A DNA stretch of 64,000 nucleotides from Streptomyces phaeolivaceus (GTDB lineage Bacteria; Actinomycetota; Actinomycetes; Streptomycetales; Streptomycetaceae): contig NZ_CP045096.1 in the NCBI RefSeq assembly GCF_009184865.1, positions 1,984,001-2,048,000 on the forward strand. The letters run 5' to 3'. Shown here in pieces: positions 42,185 through 49,102 of this stretch. Below the pieces are notes generated by a model. The model searched no databases, had not been told where the DNA came from, and saw only the letters and a list, made by a program, of their open reading frames with translations. How positions within the stretch are numbered: the first letter of the stretch is position 1; each line of letters begins with the position of its first letter. The translations under genes were made by a program, and so were the position numbers.

Positions 42185-43777
42185 TCAGCCCCGTCCGTGG
42201 GCCCACGGCCAGTGGGCGTCCCGGGCGGCCTCCAGCAGCGGCACCATCCGGAAGGCCGCGTCCGAGAGGCCGCCGAAGGTGTGGCGGTCGCCCTTGCCGG
42301 AGGGGCCGTGGGCCGCCCGGTGGCCGGCGAGGTTCCAGGTGTAGACCGGCACGGCGGCCGGGACCTGCGCGGTCGGGTCGCCGTGGTGGCTGTAGGAGGC
42401 CTGCTCGTCGGTGACGATCAGCACCCGGTCGTGCCCCCGGTAGTGGCGGCGGACGGCCTCGGTGGTGTCGGTGCCGCCCAGGTCGCCGAACCGCTCGATG
42501 ATCTTCAGCACGGACTCGCCCGCGCCGAACCGCACCACCCGGCTCGTGCTCCCGAACTCGACGAGATCCGCGTCCGCCGCCCGCAGCGCGAGCGCCGAGC
42601 CGAAGATCGCCGCCGCGTCCGCGTAGCTGAGCTGCGAGCGGTCGGTCAGATGCGAGCAGAACATCGAGCCCGAGCGGTCGACCAGGACCAGGGTCCGGCC
42701 GGGCAGCGCGGGCACATTGGCCAGCGAGTGGCCGAGCGCCCGCTCCAGCGGGTACGCCCAGCGCAGCGAGGGCGCGTGGCGGTACGCCGAGAGGTAGCGG
42801 AACGGGAACTGCCGCGACCGCGCGACCTCCGCCGGATCGCTGATCCGTGCCGCCACCTGCGTGGCGACCTCGTCGGAGACACCCGCCCGGTCGAAGTTGC
42901 CCAGGTTCCTGGTCAGGGCCATGACACCCATGGACGGGATGACGGCCTCCCACGCCGCCTTGTCCATCGGTCCCCGCAGCCAGCCCGCGAGCGCCTCCCA
43001 GGTGATGCCCGCGTCCGCGAGGCGCCGGGCGCCGCCCGCACCGGTGACGACCTTGCGCCGCTTGGCGGGCCGCAGCTCCATCAGGTCGCGATGGGCCGCG
43101 AGCACGGGCAGCGACCGGGGTACGACGGCCGTGTCCGGGTTGTGGCGCCGGTCGAGGGCGTACTGGAACAGGTCGCCCTGCCACGGCTTGTCCGGGTCCG
43201 GCGCCGCGTGCACCAGGTTCAGGATGTCGCCGAAGCGGTAGCCCTTGGACGGGGTGTCGTACTTCAGCAGCGACCTGGGGGTGTAGAGGCGTCGTACGGC
43301 GTCGGCGACGCCCCGCTTCACCGGCTTGGGGAGGGTGCGGCCGTAGCGCGAGGTCCAGTAGGCGAGCAGTTCACCGGGCTCGTCCGGGCGCCGCAGCACC
43401 GAGTCGACGACCTGGCGGTTGGTGGGCCCGTCGGTGACGCCCGCGTCGAGGCGCGCCTTCACATACTCGGCGGCGCCCACGATCGAGGCGGTACGGAGGT
43501 TGCCCTCGCCGCGCAGCCAGCCGAGCAGGCCGGCCGTCCACGCCGGGTCGGTGACGGCGAGCCGGCGCACGAGTGCGGCGAACCGGCCGTCCCGGTCCTC
43601 GCCGCTCTCGTAGAAGGTCTTCTGCGCGACGAAGTTGGCGAGGGAGAGCAGGAACAGTTCCGAGCGCTCGTCCCGCTCACGGCCTCGGCCGCCCTCGTGG
43701 GTACGGAGCACACGCCCCGTCGAGGTGACCCGCGAGGTGGGCTGTGCCTTGCCTGCCTTCGTGTTGAATCGCGCCAT
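42185..43777 (-). CDS. rsr: Ro60/TROVE-domain RNA-binding protein
   Basis: A 530-residue bacterial Ro60 orthologue. The TROVE HEAT-repeat ring spans about residues 20-340, with the typical RDGRFAALVRRLAVTDP and RNLGNFDRAGV segments. A C-terminal von Willebrand A domain starts at RTLVLVDRSGSMF, with MIDAS residues D367, S369 and S371. In other bacteria such proteins bind Y RNAs and, with exonucleases such as PNPase, take part in rRNA maturation and RNA decay after stress. The ATG follows GGGGGA by about 7 bases. Two Y-RNA-like transcripts lie directly upstream on the same strand, the nearer ending 43 bases before the start codon. Confidence 0.93.
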   Translation of the reverse strand: MARFNTKAGKAQPTSRVTSTGRVLRTHEGGRGRERDERSELFLLSLANFVAQKTFYESGEDRDGRFAALVRRLAVTDPAWTAGLLGWLRGEGNLRTASIVGAAEYVKARLDAGVTDGPTNRQVVDSVLRRPDEPGELLAYWTSRYGRTLPKPVKRGVADAVRRLYTPRSLLKYDTPSKGYRFGDILNLVHAAPDPDKPWQGDLFQYALDRRHNPDTAVVPRSLPVLAAHRDLMELRPAKRRKVVTGAGGARRLADAGITWEALAGWLRGPMDKAAWEAVIPSMGVMALTRNLGNFDRAGVSDEVATQVAARISDPAEVARSRQFPFRYLSAYRHAPSLRWAYPLERALGHSLANVPALPGRTLVLVDRSGSMFCSHLTDRSQLSYADAAAIFGSALALRAADADLVEFGSTSRVVRFGAGESVLKIIERFGDLGGTDTTEAVRRHYRGHDRVLIVTDEQASYSHHGDPTAQVPAAVPVYTWNLAGHRAAHGPSGKGDRHTFGGLSDAAFRMVPLLEAARDAHWPWAHGRG

Positions 43778-43819: not shown

Positions 43820-44010
43820 GGGAGGCGCGGCAAAAGGAAGGTGCCCGAGGTCGAATTCGGCGGCGGTGCTCATAACTGGCGCGTCTTCCGTTCCGCCACA
43901 CCGACCCTGGGTCGATGACGGGATTCGAACCCGCATGAGGAGTCACCCCCACCAGTTCCCGAAGTATCCGCTGCCTGCGCACCGGGCACCCACCATCTGC
44001 CGCGCCTCCC
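43820..44010 (-). ncRNA. Y-RNA-like RNA B with permuted tRNA-Leu-like module
   Basis: Read on the minus strand, a 13-base perfect outer stem closes the RNA (43998-44010 with 43820-43832). It is followed by an internal loop and an 8-base stem GGTGCCCG/CGGGCACC (43983-43990 with 43840-43847), then a helix GGC-a-GCGG / CCGC-c-GCC (43968-43975 with 43859-43866). The core is a tRNA in circular order: stem AACTGG (43952-43957), a long variable-arm-like segment, T arm GCGGG-TTCGAAT-CCCGT (43918-43934), acceptor-like hairpin CATCGAC/GTCGGTG with a 5-base loop (43899-43917), a D arm GGCGGAACGGAAGACGCGCC as in tRNA-Leu, then CCAGTT (43874-43879) closing the anticodon-like stem. This is the architecture expected of Ro60-associated YrlA RNAs. 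Confidence 0.75.
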
Positions 44011-44017
44011 GAGATCG

Positions 44018-44039
44018 AAAGAACGCACCGGGAGGTGCG
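44018..44039 (-). terminator. Terminator after RNA A
   Basis: Minus-strand hairpin CGCACC-TCCC-GGTGCG followed by TTCTTTC, directly after the 3' stem of RNA A and before the 5' stem of RNA B. It suggests that the two RNAs can be separate transcripts. Confidence 0.55.
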
Positions 44040-44199
44040 TGAAGCTTTGGGTGTCCAGAGATCGAATTCGGCGGAACCGACATGGCAGCTCTCACCCCTG
44101 AGCTACACCGGCGTGTTGGTGCCGGTGGCGGGACTCGAACCCGCGCACGCCCCTTAGCAGAGGAAGTAGGTCCTGCCTTCGCACCTGGACAGGCTTCAC
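44039..44199 (-). ncRNA. Y-RNA-like RNA A with permuted tRNA-like module and internal CCA
   Basis: On the minus strand the ends pair as GTGAAGC/GCTTCAC (44193-44199 with 44039-44045) and TGTCCAG/CTGGACA (44185-44191 with 44052-44058) around a C versus CCCAAA internal loop. A helix GGC-a-GGaCC / GGtTCC-GCC (44169-44177 with 44070-44078) follows. The core has, in this order, an arm with loop CTGCTA (44150-44165), T arm GCGGG-TTCGAGT-CCCGC (44128-44144), acceptor 3' strand CACCGGC, ACCA, a 4-base ACAC link, acceptor 5' strand GCCGGTG (44106-44112), then D arm GCTC-AGGGGTGA-GAGC (44088-44103). That is tRNA order rotated so that the 3' half precedes the 5' half. RNA A and RNA B share GGTGCGnAGGCAG and CCGCCGAATTCGAyCTC flanking blocks, so they are paralogues. 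Confidence 0.75.
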
Positions 44200-44236: not shown

Positions 44237-45760
44237 TTACCGCTTCTGCCGCTTCCACGGTCCGGTGATCGCGAGCAGGATTCCCGGGGTCTGGATGTTC
44301 GCGTAAAGGGTCCGGCCGTCGGGCGAGAAGGTGACTCCGGCGAACTCGCTGTACTCCGGGGCTTCCTCGATGCCGCCCGCTGCGGTAGCAGCCGATGTCA
44401 GCGCGAGGTCGTTGCGGGCGATCGGGTACGTACGGCCGCTGTCGGTGGCGCCGAACAGATGCGAGACGCCCTCGCCGTCCTCGGCGAGGACGATGCCGCC
44501 GTACGGGGAGACCGTGATGTTGTCGGGGCCGTCGAGGGCGCCGTCGACGGACGGGTCCGGGTTGACGCCGAGCAGGACCTTCAGGGTGAGGGTGCGGCGC
44601 TTGGGGTCGTGGAACCAGACCTGGCCGTCGTGGTGCACGGGGCTCTCGTCACGGGCGTACGAGGAGACGATGTACGCGCCGCCGTCGCCCCACCACATGC
44701 CCTCCAGCTTGCGGGCGCGGGTGATCTCGGTGTCGGTGAACTGCTTGCGCACGGCGACGGTCTTCGCGTCGCGGTCGGGGACGTCGATCCAGTCGACCCC
44801 GTACACCGTGCCGATCCTCGTGGCGCGGGAGAGGTCGTCGACGAACCGGCCGCCGGAGTCGTAGCAGCGAGGGGCCTGGAGGACGCCCGCGTCGTCGGCG
44901 AGGGTACGGAAGCGGCCGGGGCCGTGGGTGAAGCCCTTGGGCGGGGTCCAGCGGAAGAAGAGGCCGTTGGGGGCCGCCGCGTCCTCGGTGAGGTAGGCGT
45001 GGCCGCGCCTGGGGTCGATGACGACGGCCTCGTGGTCGTAGCGGCCGAAGAACTTCAGCGGCTTCGGGGCGCGGTTGGCGCGGCGGTCGCAGGGGTCGAC
45101 CTCGAAGACGTAGCCGTGGTCCTTGGTCATGCCGTTGACGCCGGCCCGGTCGGAGTTCTCCTCGCAGGTGAGCCAGGTGTTCCACGGGGTGCTGCCGCCC
45201 GCGCAGTTGGTGGAGGTGCCGGCGATGCCGACCCACTCGGCGACGCGTCCGTCGGGGCGGACCTCGACCACCGTGCAGCCGCCGGCCGCGGCGGGGTCGT
45301 AGACGAGGCCCTCGGTGAGCGGCACCGGGAACTCCCAGTTGGCCCGGGGGCCCTTCAGCTCATGGTTGTTGACGAGGAGGGTGGTGCCCCGGGGGCCGGG
45401 GAAGGCGGCGGTGCCGTCGTGCTTGCCCGGGGTGAACTCGCCCGACTCCAGCTTCGTCTTCCCGCTGTGGGTGATGATCCGGTACTTGAATCCGGCGGGC
45501 AGCGCCAGGATGCCCTTGGGGTCCGGCAGGAGCGGGCCGTAGCCGACGCCGGCGTGGCGGTCCGCCCCGCGCTCGGTGCCGTTGCCGCCACCGCTGCCGT
45601 CGTGGGCCGCGTCGTCGGTCTCCGTGTACGCGTCGTCGTCCGAGTCCGTCGACGCGAGGGCGTTGGGCGCGGTGGCGAGTGCGCCCACGCTGCCGGCCAG
45701 CGCGACACCGGCTCCGGTGACCGCGGATCGTCTGGCGAAGTCCCTGCGGGTGAGCGGCAT
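44237..45760 (-). CDS. PhoX-family phosphatase (DUF839)
   Basis: A 507-residue Tat-exported phosphatase of the PhoX type, which uses calcium and iron to hydrolyse phosphomonoesters outside the cell. The signal peptide is TRRDFARRSAVTGAG, with cleavage near residue 36, followed by an Asp/Gly-rich spacer. Family segments are LVNNHELKGP, STNCAGGSTPWNTWLTCEEN (Cys and Glu ligands), RYDHEAVVIDP, YLTEDAAAPNGLFFRW and VSPYGGIVLAEDGEG. A PHO-box-like direct repeat lies 71-92 bases upstream of the ATG, which supports phosphate control. Confidence 0.88.
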   Translation of the reverse strand: MPLTRRDFARRSAVTGAGVALAGSVGALATAPNALASTDSDDDAYTETDDAAHDGSGGGNGTERGADRHAGVGYGPLLPDPKGILALPAGFKYRIITHSGKTKLESGEFTPGKHDGTAAFPGPRGTTLLVNNHELKGPRANWEFPVPLTEGLVYDPAAAGGCTVVEVRPDGRVAEWVGIAGTSTNCAGGSTPWNTWLTCEENSDRAGVNGMTKDHGYVFEVDPCDRRANRAPKPLKFFGRYDHEAVVIDPRRGHAYLTEDAAAPNGLFFRWTPPKGFTHGPGRFRTLADDAGVLQAPRCYDSGGRFVDDLSRATRIGTVYGVDWIDVPDRDAKTVAVRKQFTDTEITRARKLEGMWWGDGGAYIVSSYARDESPVHHDGQVWFHDPKRRTLTLKVLLGVNPDPSVDGALDGPDNITVSPYGGIVLAEDGEGVSHLFGATDSGRTYPIARNDLALTSAATAAGGIEEAPEYSEFAGVTFSPDGRTLYANIQTPGILLAITGPWKRQKR

Positions 45761-45950: not shown

Positions 45951-47463
45951 CAAGGCCGTGAAGTTAGGGCTTTGGGAGCGTTGGCAAGTGCGCTCTGGTT
46001 CTATGGCTTCTTGGAACGTGGGAAGCGGAGCCCCGGTAGAACTGGCAGTCGACCAAGACAGCCGTTCACAGGACCGGAGGCTCCGCTGTCCGATCAGTGT
46101 GTCATCACGCGGGAAATCACGGTAGCCAAGGGCGTGTTCGCCCCGGGGCATCTGGGGGAACTCACCCGGATCATCCCGTTCGAGATGGTCGATGCGGTCC
46201 TTGCCGAGACCGGTGCTGTCCAGCAACGGCTGCGGAAGATTCCCGCCCGGGTGGTGGTCTACCTGCTGCTGGCCGCGGCCCTGTTCGAGGACTGCGGCTA
46301 CCTGGCCGTCTGGCGCAGGCTCACCGCCGCGCTGGAGACGATACCGGTCGTGAAGATCACCGGCGCGGGGCTCTGGGACGCCCGCAGGCGTCTGGGCGTG
46401 CGGCCCATGCGGGCCCTGTTCGATCTGCTGCGCGGGCCGGCCACGGTGATCCGCACCCGCGGCGCCCGCTTCAAGGGCCTGCTGGCCGTTGCGATCGACG
46501 GCACCTACCTCGACGTTCCCGACAGCCCGCCGCACCGGGCCCGTCTGGGCAAGGGGTCCAACCGGTTCGGAACTGCCGGCTACCCGCAGATCTGCCTGAC
46601 CGCGCTGGTGGCCTGTGGCACCCGGGCGATCCTGGATGCCGCCTTCGGACCGCGCTCCCAGGGAGAGACCGGACACGGCAGGCGGCTCATGCGCTCCCTG
46701 CACGCCGGAATGATCGTCCTGCTGGACCGGGGCTTTTCGGGCAACGCGTTCCTGACAGCCGTCGCCGCCACCGAAGCCTCCTTCCTCGCACGCATCACTG
46801 CCACCCGCAAACCTCCCGTCCTGGCCCGCTTCGGCGACGGCTCCCACCTCTCCCGCTTCGGCGCCCTCGAGGTCCGCATCATCGAATGCGAGATCACCGT
46901 CACCACCAGCCAGGGCCGCCGCACCGGGCTCTACCGGCTGGCCACCAACCTCCTGGACCACCACCGCTACCCGGCATCCGACCTGGTCAGTCTGTATCAC
47001 GAGCGGTGGGAAGTGGAGTCCGCCTACTTCGCGATCAAGAAAACGATGCTGGGCCGGCGGGTCCTGCGCTCCACCACTCCGCCCGGCATCGCCCAGGAGG
47101 TCTACGCCCTGCTGAGCGCCTACCAGGCCCTGCGGATCGCTATCGCCGACGCCACAGGGGCCACACCCGGAACAGACCCGGACCGGGCCAGCTTCAGCGT
47201 TGCCCTGCGATGCGCCCGCGACCAGATCGTCCAGGCCGCGGGCATCATCGCCGGCACCACGATCGACCTCGTCGGGACGATCGGCCGAACCGTCCTGGAA
47301 CACCTCATGCCCGCCCGCCGCCTCCGCATCAGCCCCCGCGCAGTGAAACGACCCCTGTCCCGATACGCCTACAAAAGCCTCAATATCGACCGACGCACCT
47401 ACACAGCCACCCTCAGCATCAACATCTTGACGCCGACGATCAGCCCATAACTTCACGGCCTTG
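45951..47463 (+). mobile_element. IS4-family insertion sequence, complete copy
   Basis: A 1513-base element bounded by 16-base perfect terminal inverted repeats (CAAGGCCGTGAAGTTA and complement). The 10-base sequence CCTGAAAAGC is directly repeated on both sides (45941-45950 and 47464-47473), as expected for an IS4-type target duplication. The perfect repeats suggest a recent insertion. It landed in the loop region of an extragenic palindrome. Confidence 0.9.
46086..47450 (+). CDS. IS4-family transposase
   Basis: A DDE transposase of about 454 residues. The acidic triad is in LAVAIDGTYLDVPDS, IVLLDRGFSG and YHERWEVESAYFAIKK, the last matching the Y-x2-R-x3-E-x6-K signature of IS4. The start is uncertain: homologous sequence begins around LSDQCVITREI, where the codon is CTG preceded by GGAGG at 5 bases. 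TTG codons lie further upstream inside the element, and the next GTG (46134) would trim conserved sequence. All catalytic motifs are intact, so the element may be active. Confidence 0.85.
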   Translation: MSDQCVITREITVAKGVFAPGHLGELTRIIPFEMVDAVLAETGAVQQRLRKIPARVVVYLLLAAALFEDCGYLAVWRRLTAALETIPVVKITGAGLWDARRRLGVRPMRALFDLLRGPATVIRTRGARFKGLLAVAIDGTYLDVPDSPPHRARLGKGSNRFGTAGYPQICLTALVACGTRAILDAAFGPRSQGETGHGRRLMRSLHAGMIVLLDRGFSGNAFLTAVAATEASFLARITATRKPPVLARFGDGSHLSRFGALEVRIIECEITVTTSQGRRTGLYRLATNLLDHHRYPASDLVSLYHERWEVESAYFAIKKTMLGRRVLRSTTPPGIAQEVYALLSAYQALRIAIADATGATPGTDPDRASFSVALRCARDQIVQAAGIIAGTTIDLVGTIGRTVLEHLMPARRLRISPRAVKRPLSRYAYKSLNIDRRTYTATLSINILTPTISP

Positions 47464-47575
47464 CCTGAAAAGCAGGGGCTACGCCCCGTGCTTTTCATCT
47501 CTTAGGGGCGCGGGGAACTGCGCGAGAAGCCCCACCGGACCCGCACCCGTCGACGAACGCCGCACCCCCGAGCTA

Positions 47576-49102
47576 TCAGGCGCCCGCGCCCGGCCCCATC
47601 TGAGACCGCGCCTTGAACGCCGCCTTGCGGGCCTCCTTCGCCACCCTCTTGTCGGGGTGGATCCTCCCCATCGCCTCCAGCACATCCGGCGTGGCAGGGT
47701 GCTCCACCCGCCACGCCGCCGCGAAGAACGACCCGTGCTGCGCCGCGAGCCCCTCCACCAGCGCCCGCAGCTCCGCGGAGTTCCCCTCGGCGGCGAGCTG
47801 CGCGGCCACCGTGTCGATGGTCAGCCAGAAGACCATCGCCTCGGACGGCGCGGGCACCTCCGCGGCACCCCGCTCGGTGAGCCACACCCGGGCCAGCCCG
47901 CCCAGCTCGGGGTCGTCCAGCACCTCCCGGAGCGCCGGCTCGGCCACCGCCCCCACCAGTGACAGCGCCTGCTGACAGCGCAGCCGCCGCAGCGGGGCGC
48001 CCGGGTCGGAGCCGCGCGCCGCCGCGAGCAGCTCGCGCGCCGCGTCCAGCGACTCCCGGCGCGCGAGCCACTGCTCGGTCTCGGCGTGCGCCGCCGCCGG
48101 CGGGAACCCGGCGGTGCCGTCCAGCAGCGCGTCCGCGCCCTTGTCGACGAGGTCCCCGACCGCCGGCGCGGGCACGCCCGCCTCCTGGAGCCGGGCCCGG
48201 ACGCCGTACAGCCCGAGCGGGGTGAGCCGGACCATGCCGTACCGCGTGACATCGGTGTCGTCGACCACCGGCGACCCCGACGACCCCGGCCCGCCCGCCC
48301 CCTCGGCGGCGGCCACGGCCTCCTCCGCGTCGGTCATCAGCGCCTCGTCCACGGGCTGGTACTCCACCAGCCCGATCGGCTCCAGCACCCGGAACTGGTC
48401 GTCGAGCCGCATCATCGCGTCCGAGACCTGTTCCAGTACGTCGTTGGTGGGCTCCCCCATGTCGTCCGGGACGATCATCGACGCGGCGAGCGCGGGCAGC
48501 GGCACCGGCCCGTCGGGGCCGTCCTCGCTGACGGTGAGGAGGTAGAGGTTGCCGAGCACCCCGTCGAGGAACTCCGCCTCGGCCTCGGGGTCCCAGTCCA
48601 GCTGGGAGAGGTCGATCCCGCCGCCGGAGTCCATGGCGTCGACCAGGCCGTCGAGGTCGGGCACGCTCGCGTCGGCGAGGGCGGTCTCCAGGGCGGCGAG
48701 CCAGATGCCGAGCACGTCCTGCGGGCCGCCGGAGGTGAGGAGCGCGAGATCCTCGCCCACCGCGACCGTCCCCTCCTCCTCGTCCACGATCTCGACGAGC
48801 CCGGTGTCGACGGCCACCCGCCAGGCCTCACTGGCCGAGGCAGCCGCGTCGTCGCCGCCCGAGCCGTCGAAGCCGCCGTCGCCGTCCGCTCCCTCCGCGC
48901 GCCCGCCGGTGAGCCCGAGCGCCTCGGCGGCGGCGGGCAACTGCTCCTCGACGAGTTCGCCCCCGGCGCCCACCCGGGTGTCCGGCCCGGCCCAGCGGGC
49001 GAGCCGTACGGCGCGCGCGAGCAGGGGGGTGGCGAGCGCCTCGCGCGCCAACTCCGCTTCGGGGAGGAGCCGCACCGGCGGCAGTGGCGAGCTGTCTGAC
49101 AT
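47576..49102 (-). CDS. Hypothetical protein with helical repeats
   Basis: A 508-residue Ala/Glu/Leu-rich acidic protein without signal peptide or membrane segments. The middle part (about 165-290) has two acidic stretches, and the C-terminal third (LARRESLDAARELLAAARGSDPGAPLRRLRCQQALSLVG) looks like HEAT or similar helical repeats. I do not recognise a characterised family. It resembles large hypothetical proteins common in Streptomyces. The ATG at 49102 was preferred because upstream sequence in the same frame is Arg/Pro-rich. Confidence 0.7.
   Translation of the reverse strand: MSDSSPLPPVRLLPEAELAREALATPLLARAVRLARWAGPDTRVGAGGELVEEQLPAAAEALGLTGGRAEGADGDGGFDGSGGDDAAASASEAWRVAVDTGLVEIVDEEEGTVAVGEDLALLTSGGPQDVLGIWLAALETALADASVPDLDGLVDAMDSGGGIDLSQLDWDPEAEAEFLDGVLGNLYLLTVSEDGPDGPVPLPALAASMIVPDDMGEPTNDVLEQVSDAMMRLDDQFRVLEPIGLVEYQPVDEALMTDAEEAVAAAEGAGGPGSSGSPVVDDTDVTRYGMVRLTPLGLYGVRARLQEAGVPAPAVGDLVDKGADALLDGTAGFPPAAAHAETEQWLARRESLDAARELLAAARGSDPGAPLRRLRCQQALSLVGAVAEPALREVLDDPELGGLARVWLTERGAAEVPAPSEAMVFWLTIDTVAAQLAAEGNSAELRALVEGLAAQHGSFFAAAWRVEHPATPDVLEAMGRIHPDKRVAKEARKAAFKARSQMGPGAGA

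Follow-up and report, generated by a model that had tools for sequence, protein, structure and literature searches.

Y RNAs with tRNA-like modules upstream of the Ro60 gene of Streptomyces phaeolivaceus and its relatives

Introduction

Ro60 is an RNA-binding protein with a counterpart in humans, and in Deinococcus more than one Y RNA accompanies a single Ro60 gene. The Salmonella Y RNA YrlA reportedly has no free CCA end, and a kinked stem is said to replace its anticodon stem; why bacterial Y RNAs imitate tRNAs is, to our knowledge, an open question. A Ro60 gene of the soil bacterium Streptomyces phaeolivaceus, preceded by two tRNA-like RNAs, brings this question to a single locus: what are these RNAs, and to which proteins might their tRNA-like parts be offered?

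Results

Two paralogous RNAs precede the Ro60 gene

The stretch of DNA analysed here (the window) comprises 64,000 nt of NZ_CP045096.1 (GCF_009184865.1, positions 1,984,001-2,048,000, forward strand). Its minus strand carries a gene (42185-43777) for a 530-aa protein, P0001, in which the Pfam TROVE domain scores 50.9 bits against a cut-off of 23, and the gene is therefore Ro60/Rsr, as a sequence-only reading of this DNA had proposed. Just two distinct PDB chains, 9l5y and 9kop, match the protein by sequence at E <= 0.01, both at 2e-23 and both named TROVE domain-containing protein. Directly upstream, also on the minus strand, lie two paralogous RNAs: the tRNA-like Y RNA RNA1 (44199-44039), with an outer stem of GTGAAGC (44199-44193) and GCTTCAC (44045-44039), and the tRNA-Leu-like Y RNA RNA2 (44010-43820), with outer stem GGGAGGCGCGGC/GCCGCGCCTCCC. 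This arrangement had been claimed by the same reading, along with sequence blocks common to both RNAs, and each of these claims holds. The 5' block GGTGCGnAGGCAG is found at 44185-44173 in RNA1 and 43983-43971 in RNA2, the 3' block CCGCCGAATTCGAyCTC is present in both, and the helix between the blocks differs on both strands with pairing kept (GGC-A-GGACC/GGTTCC-GCC versus GGC-A-GCGG/CCGC-C-GCC). In RNA1 the blocks read GGTGCGAAGGCAG (44185-44173, minus strand), which is invariant or nearly so among relatives and is a putative Ro60-binding region, and CCGCCGAATTCGATCTC (44074-44058, minus strand).

Between the two RNAs, the minus strand holds the remnant of a short third Y RNA, Y3 (44035-44005), reduced to a hairpin CCTCCCGGTGCG...GATCTCGGGAGG that is possibly the end of RNA1. 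The sequence CGGGAGG (44005-44011) serves both as the 3' strand of the Y3 outer stem and as the 5' strand of the RNA2 outer stem, so the two pairings are mutually exclusive within one transcript. The Y3 remnant, a TACTTC motif in both RNAs, the anticodon arm of RNA1 and the Leu-like core of RNA2 with its long variable arm had not figured in the sequence-only reading. A PhoX gene (44237-45760) lies upstream of RNA1 and adjoins a long open frame of 621 aa (46097-47962) that, by eye, is possibly an insertion-sequence gene. A simple scan found neither a sigma-70-type promoter nor a terminator.

The RNAs are Y RNAs that resemble YrlA

At its cut-offs, Rfam called no family in the window and no YrlA in 18 further loci, and ARAGORN called 0 tRNA genes in the window, where the permuted arm order sets the RNAs apart from tRNAs. 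Under relaxed limits, YrlA (RF02553, cut-off 69 bits) matched RNA1 at 28 bits (E 0.00067) and RNA2 at 15.3 bits (E 3), although for RNA1 a tmRNA match had fewer bits (18.7) and yet the better E-value (1.5e-5), and the top match to RNA2 in the window was not YrlA. YrlA was the best Rfam match in nine of nine further loci, at 30.1-54.3 bits and with E-values down to 2.4e-10, all below the cut-off. The permuted T, acceptor and D arms of YrlA are present and its gathering cut-off is not reached, so we describe the RNAs as YrlA-like and do not file them as RF02553. The permuted tmRNA family (RF04321) shares the permutation of tRNA halves, but its score was 21.3 bits against a cut-off of 47 and a CCA is not conserved in RNA1 relatives. 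Matches to MIR1858, Vault, snoRNA and CRISPR-repeat families in the relaxed scan were taken as chance.

As in bacterial Y RNAs in the broad sense, the RNAs adjoin and co-occur with Ro60 and their paired ends form a basal stem. The earlier proposal that they are Y-RNA-like, mimic tRNAs and are tied to Ro60 is borne out by the alignments described below, by co-occurrence with Ro60 and by YrlA as the closest Rfam family, and their identity as Ro60-associated Y RNAs is secure. Like YrlA, for example that of Salmonella, they adjoin a Ro60 gene and combine a basal stem with a permuted module of T arm, acceptor stem and D arm; unlike YrlA, RNA1 relatives have a separate closed anticodon hairpin, and RNA2 of the window has a long variable arm of the Leu type. 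As excerpted, the description of YrlA in PMC8394870 names only D, T and acceptor arms. The presence of more than one Y RNA per Ro60 gene recalls the Salmonella yrlBA pair (passages of PMC7790460). Unlike that pair and the RNAs of Deinococcus, however, there are three RNAs in most Streptomyces loci and as many as five units in loci of other genera, several of which are tRNA-like and resemble different tRNAs.

A basal stem carries a permuted tRNA-like core

To compare these RNAs, we assembled 81 Streptomyces Ro60 loci, namely the window and the best 80 of 269 relatives. RNA1 is present in 61 of them (missing in 20) and RNA2 in 78 (missing in 3). Alignments were made of 54 RNA1 sequences, with near-identical ones merged (A1), of 30 of the 33 RNA2 with a long variable arm (L008, L048 and L059 left out) and of all 34 type-I RNA2, and a further 11 Leu-type RNA2 with a shorter variable region stood outside the alignments. 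The three alignments have one architecture in common, a basal stem that carries a circularly permuted tRNA-like core, in which the 3' part of the anticodon stem comes first, then the variable region, the T arm, the 3' acceptor strand, the closing loop, the 5' acceptor strand and the D arm. The basal stem is conserved in each RNA (GGTGCG...TACTTC / CCG...GAyCTC), and it carries an effector module. In RNA1 relatives this is a permuted core of type I that has a separate anticodon hairpin, whereas the window's RNA2 has a core that resembles tRNA-Leu, likewise permuted, and a long variable arm.

In the named structures, 94.8% (RNA1), 96.3% (long-arm RNA2) and 98.2% (type-I RNA2) of cells are paired, compared with only 32-53% when the partners were slid by 1-3 columns, and two-sided changes were observed at 5, 10 and 7 pairs, respectively. 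The inner part of the RNA1 basal stem is paired in 100% of cells and the RNA2 basal stem in 95.7-97.9%, while the outermost RNA1 helix (four pairs) is paired in 50.9%. Support is thinner for RNA1 because strong conservation leaves 27 of its 39 pairs invariant across the 54 sequences, and its number of pair types was not above shuffles, being reached by 464 of 500. The folding z-score is -2.4 for RNA1 (2 of 200 shuffles fold as well) and -4.6 for RNA2 (0 of 200). RNAalifold, without being supplied with a structure, predicted the permuted cloverleaf for type-I RNA2 and for RNA1, in the latter with the anticodon hairpin. The single-sequence fold of RNA2 did not reproduce the whole proposed core, and its structure therefore rests on comparison. 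The T, D and acceptor arms vary very little in any of the three alignments.

RNA1 relatives carry an anticodon arm

On the minus strand, RNA1 of the window contains an anticodon-arm hairpin with a 6-nt loop (TTCCT/CTGCTA/AGGGG, 44165-44150), a T arm (GCGGG-TTCGAGT-CCCGC, 44144-44128), an acceptor-like stem (CACCGGC/GCCGGTG, 44127-44106) with closing loop ACCAACAC, and a D arm (GCTC...GAGC, 44103-44088). In its lowest-energy fold, the anticodon hairpin is shifted to CCUCU/AGGGG with a 4-nt loop, GCUA. The closing loop suggested an encoded CCA end and hence a processed two-piece tRNA; this candidate was rejected, as relatives mostly have ACAACGC or similar at this place.

The usual arm of RNA1 relatives is TTCCA-CTNNTAA-TGGGG, after which come five bases of variable region and then the T arm. 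A search with the motif AGGCAGGACYTACTTCC was successful in 148 of 168 sources (the window, the 80 loci and 87 additional pattern-selected ones) and yielded 127 distinct loci, 124 of which have a 7-nt loop between TTCCN and NGGGG; the shortened loop of the window is one of the three exceptions. Among these 124 loops, 114 recur exactly as tRNA anticodon loops in the window's own genome. TTCC is preselected by the motif, as is CT at positions 32-33 by the exact RNA1 pattern in the 87 additional sources, but C32 and U33 are also invariant in the 54 RNA1 of A1, which were free of such selection. The closing pair of the anticodon stem is G-C in place of A-T in 6 loci and an A-C mismatch in L243, and near-identical RNA1 copies (L003, L005, L007, L008 and L010) differ at the two anticodon bases.

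RNA2 switches between two types of core

RNA2 of the window, also on the minus strand, has an anticodon-stem 3' strand AACTGG (43957-43952) that pairs with CCAGTT (43879-43874) as helix 3, with 91.7% of cells paired, and a long variable arm, GGGGGTGACTCCTC (43950-43937; helix 4, 88.3% of cells paired). These are accompanied by a T arm (GCGGG...CCCGT, 43934-43918), an acceptor-like stem CATCGAC/GTCGGTG with loop CCAGG (43917-43899), in which one pair shows a two-sided change in 8 of 30 sequences, and a D arm, GCGGAACGGAAGACGC (43896-43881), assigned to the Leu type by alignment and tRNA comparison. The Leu-type D arm occurs in 44 of 78 loci, with a long variable arm in 33 of them, and in the other 34 loci the core is type I, the D arm is of the GTAGCTCA type and the variable region is always short.

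The RNAs were compared with tRNAs of the genome to which the window belongs, for which ARAGORN gave 54 distinct sequences from 66 of 68 tRNA places. One stretch of that genome (G000:C2:7618861-7619408) holds five tRNA matches within 550 bases, with scores below most others. tRNA-Leu is the best match of all 33 long-arm RNA2 and of 10 of the 11 Leu-type RNA2 with a shorter arm, while type-I RNA2 (n=34) best match Arg(ACG) (13), Trp (8), Asn (7), His (5) and Lys (1), and RNA1 (n=61) best matches Met(CAT) (36), His (15), Arg(CCT) (6) and Thr(CGT) (4). The resemblance to tRNA-Leu, tRNA-Met and tRNA-Arg of the same genome lies in the arm sequences and, in most RNA1 relatives, in whole anticodon loops; the permuted order, the closed acceptor loop and the lack of an ARAGORN call in the window distinguish the RNAs from these tRNAs.

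By parsimony on the Ro60 tree, the RNA2 D-arm type changed 19 times, against a mean of 25.6 and a lowest value of 20 for shuffled labels, which indicates some phylogenetic signal, yet also that the core was often switched while the flanks stayed; exchange of Ro60 among strains could inflate this count. Type-I RNA2 is found in 16 of 20 loci without RNA1, compared with 18 of 58 RNA1-bearing loci with RNA2, so that loss of RNA1 and type-I RNA2 go together as a tendency only.

A third short RNA and larger arrays

Between RNA1 and RNA2, most Streptomyces loci have a full Y3, a short Y RNA of ~72 nt with no tRNA core (68 of 81); it is shortened to ~30 nt in 12 loci, including the window, and was not found in 1. 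All 20 loci that lack RNA1 have a full Y3. The sequence-only reading had spoken of a two-RNA Ro60 system, which does not apply in general, given this third unit and the larger arrays outside the genus.

Across 199 genomes of the genus, the exact RNA1 pattern was found in 44 of the 94 whose Ro60 match is strong (E <= 1e-150) and in 0 of the 105 others. Across the class, 51 of 394 genomes have a Ro60 relative at E <= 1e-30. Upstream of 49 further Ro60 loci (26 outside the genus and 23 from more distant Streptomyces), we counted units with the motif TG(C/A)(G/A)-N10-12-(T/C)(A/C)CTTC. There were 0 units in 4 loci, 1 in 14, 2 in 22, 3 in 2, 4 in 5 and 5 in 2, and all loci with four or five units are outside the genus. 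Ten second or diverged Ro60 copies (L308-L316 and L318), ~63-69% identical, have a single Y unit each, in which neither a T loop nor an anticodon hairpin was found.

Parsing gave 56 T-loop units, 46 of them with an acceptor-like stem of at least 6 pairs. An anticodon hairpin (5 pairs, U33, a purine at 37 and a tRNA-like distance) was present in 20 of these 46 tRNA-like units, compared with 0.16 expected from single-base shuffles, and was seen both outside the genus (15 of 38) and inside it (5 of 8). The hairpins of the 20 units comprise 8 stem versions and 12 loops, and one unit (L287) combines a Glu-type D arm with a Glu-type CTCTCAA loop. Among 42 units with no T loop, a TTC-anchored hairpin was found in 19, of which 6 have a natural loop, that is, one equal to an anticodon loop of the genome's own tRNAs.

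A covariance model, R1, was built from 23 RNA1, the window copy among them. It recovered RNA1 of the window, a training member, in full length at 155.6 bits and RNA2 at 47.4 bits (E 9.8e-10). Of 52 chosen sources, some of them phages and one a plasmid, 50 gave at least one full-length match at E <= 0.01, the exceptions being L308 and L309. When 296 genomes were searched, 205 had some match at E <= 0.001, mostly weak. We discounted weak partial matches (positions 26-107), which are probably tandem tRNAs, and used only full-length matches at E <= 1e-10, comparing the lists of Ro60 genomes by eye. This search, of a kind that the sequence-only reading had put forward as a check, returned 25 genomes, all of them Ro60-positive. 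Three strong full-length matches (G095:C5:161564-161700, G660:C4:23289-23422 and G644:C40:212504-212641) lie on a contig other than that of the detected Ro60, and may represent orphan Y-RNA loci or second ones that went undetected.

These distributions bear on two explanations in which no RNA would act in trans with Ro60. The region could be a structured 5' leader and processing or terminator region of the rsr mRNA that works in cis, as might be thought from the placement of all units upstream on the same strand and from the potentially exclusive Y3 and RNA2 pairings at CGGGAGG. However, unit number and core type vary among loci and the three matches above are separated from the Ro60 contig, which leaves this explanation very improbable. 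That the units are functionless remnants of tandem tRNA genes is more improbable still: the many weak partial R1 matches in Ro60-less genomes may indeed be tandem tRNAs, but conserved basal stems, covariation, linkage to Ro60 and the absence of any ARAGORN tRNA in the window all argue against it.

Ro60 relatives and Y-RNA units in phages and plasmids

Relatives of Ro60 were also found in 47 phage and 8 plasmid records. We read 9 phage Ro60 stretches, several of them among tRNA genes, and counted at least 4 units by motif in 5. The motif identified 28 phage and plasmid units. A TTC-anchored 7-nt hairpin is present in 6 of them, and 0 of these 6 loops are natural; two further phage units (L334 and L339) appear canonical by eye. 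In three phages, a tRNA of the record that adjoins Ro60 coincides with an R1 match: tRNA-Ser(gct) at 1274-1347 of L331 (32.1 bits), tRNA-Arg(cct) at 1269-1343 of L330 (39.4 bits) and tRNA-Arg(tct) at 1204-1275 of L334 (92 bits). These tRNA labels are probably mis-annotations. Streptomyces phage JustBecause (L338) has an RNA ligase gene (729-1481) directly upstream of its Ro60 gene, which fits a role in RNA repair.

Anticodon loops are variable within a tRNA-like frame

The loops mostly retain the C/U32-U33...A37 frame of tRNAs, with positions 34-36 variable. When all distinct loops of RNA1, Y3 and the further loci were pooled, 17 of 41 were natural compared with 8.95 expected from column shuffles (p 0.0002), and the units of the further loci alone gave 7 of 12 distinct loops compared with ~2.56 (p 0.003). 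In Y3, a TTC...GAA hairpin with 3-5 pairs and a 7-nt loop is present in 63 of the 68 full copies; 38 of these 63 loops equal natural anticodon loops (column-shuffle mean 17.8, highest of 5000 shuffles 30), as do 7 of 22 distinct ones (~3.2 expected, p 0.017-0.018). RNA1 alone showed no excess over column shuffles, with 9 of 14 distinct loops natural against a mean of 9.24 (p 0.81). On the Ro60 tree, parsimony assigns 17 changes to RNA1 position 34 and 13 to position 35, where 167 four-fold sites of Ro60 average 7.75 changes (90th percentile 14). Positive selection at positions 34 and 35 is not claimed, as they are fast, yet only mildly above neutral four-fold sites. Column 111 of A1, in the RNA1 D loop, changed 18 times, as fast as the anticodon positions.

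One way to read these loops is as anticodon decoys: RNA1-type and short units held on Ro60 would soak up or sense anticodon nucleases of competitors, phages or toxin systems, and arrays would be anticodon panels kept by an arms race. The retained frame with variable positions 34-36, the excess of natural loops in the pooled set, the further loci and Y3, the change counts at positions 34 and 35, the phage arrays and the RNA ligase beside Ro60 in one phage stretch are all in keeping with this, as are passages of PMC7790460 in which the Salmonella rsr-yrlBA-rtcBA operon is switched on by cleaved tRNAs and YrlA is suggested as a competitive nuclease inhibitor. Yet the same passages state that YrlA is no substrate of the Salmonella nuclease; RNA1 alone has no excess of natural loops; the 6 phage and plasmid units with a TTC-anchored hairpin have none; and the rate excess is modest, given that position 34 is equalled or surpassed by 3.6% of four-fold sites and the D-loop column is equally fast. 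We therefore regard such decoys as a tentative proposal that is rather doubtful at present.

The RNAs could instead be classical Y RNAs only, with cores that gate Ro60 or tether it to PNPase so that structured RNA is degraded, and anticodon loops that are unconstrained leftovers of a tRNA origin. A Deinococcus Y RNA tethers Rsr to PNPase, and YrlA does likewise, according to passages of PMC7790460 and PMC8394870, and the constancy of the T, D and acceptor arms would suit such a role. A free loop, however, would hardly be expected to retain both the loop frame of tRNAs and a stem that stays paired across 8 sequence versions, and we give this explanation a little less than an even chance.

Discussion

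The explanation that we favour, with moderate confidence, is a Ro60-associated Y-RNA cluster whose tRNA-like modules are offered to tRNA-handling proteins. Ro60 would bind the basal stem, and the exposed module would be taken for a tRNA by proteins such as modification enzymes, PNPase or anticodon nucleases. The RNAs may thereby gate Ro60, tether it to such a protein or act as a decoy for that protein, and it is as a gate, tether or decoy of this tRNA-mimicking kind that they would function. The model in which Ro60 holds the stem draws on the anatomy of the RNAs and on passages of PMC8394870, PMC7790460 and PMC7824862. In the first of these, Rsr/Ro60 is bound by the basal stem of YrlA, the tRNA-like part of YrlA receives the dihydrouridine and pseudouridine modifications of the tRNA enzymes DusA and TruB, and Ro60, Y RNA and PNPase form RYPER, a complex that degrades structured RNA. 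The last, a survey of jumbo phages, describes TROVE proteins as an RNA-repair platform with a tRNA-like partner.

Cores differ both inside a locus and from one locus to the next, which suggests several partners that bind tRNA and not one redundant RNA. The sequence-only reading had supposed different clients for the two RNAs; they may have them, and the idea becomes more concrete now that RNA1 relatives are seen to join a type-I core to an anticodon arm, while the window's RNA2 is Leu-like and has a long variable arm. It is conceivable, though we would not expect it, that the Ro60 loci of actinomycetes hold whole panels of tRNA mimics, all built on the same Ro60-binding stem, by which anticodon nucleases and other proteins that attack tRNAs are decoyed or sensed. 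The mimics of such a panel would differ in their cores (type I, Leu-like with a long arm, Glu-like) and would display real, fast-changing anticodon loops. Some phages possess Ro60 arrays of their own.

Several Y RNAs per Ro60 gene and tRNA-like Y RNAs are already known, and this cluster is not categorically new. In titles and the opening lines of abstracts, we found no description of Y RNAs from Streptomyces or of Y RNAs with an anticodon arm. RNAs of this kind escape annotation, as the window and 18 loci that go uncalled at the Rfam cut-off and the three phage records that list a unit as a tRNA illustrate. Mimicry of the anticodon arm and of the long variable arm, with an anticodon that varies while its frame stays, narrows the question of tRNA imitation to proteins that read those features, and anticodon mimicry makes the idea of a decoy or sensor testable in Streptomyces, a genetically easy genus.
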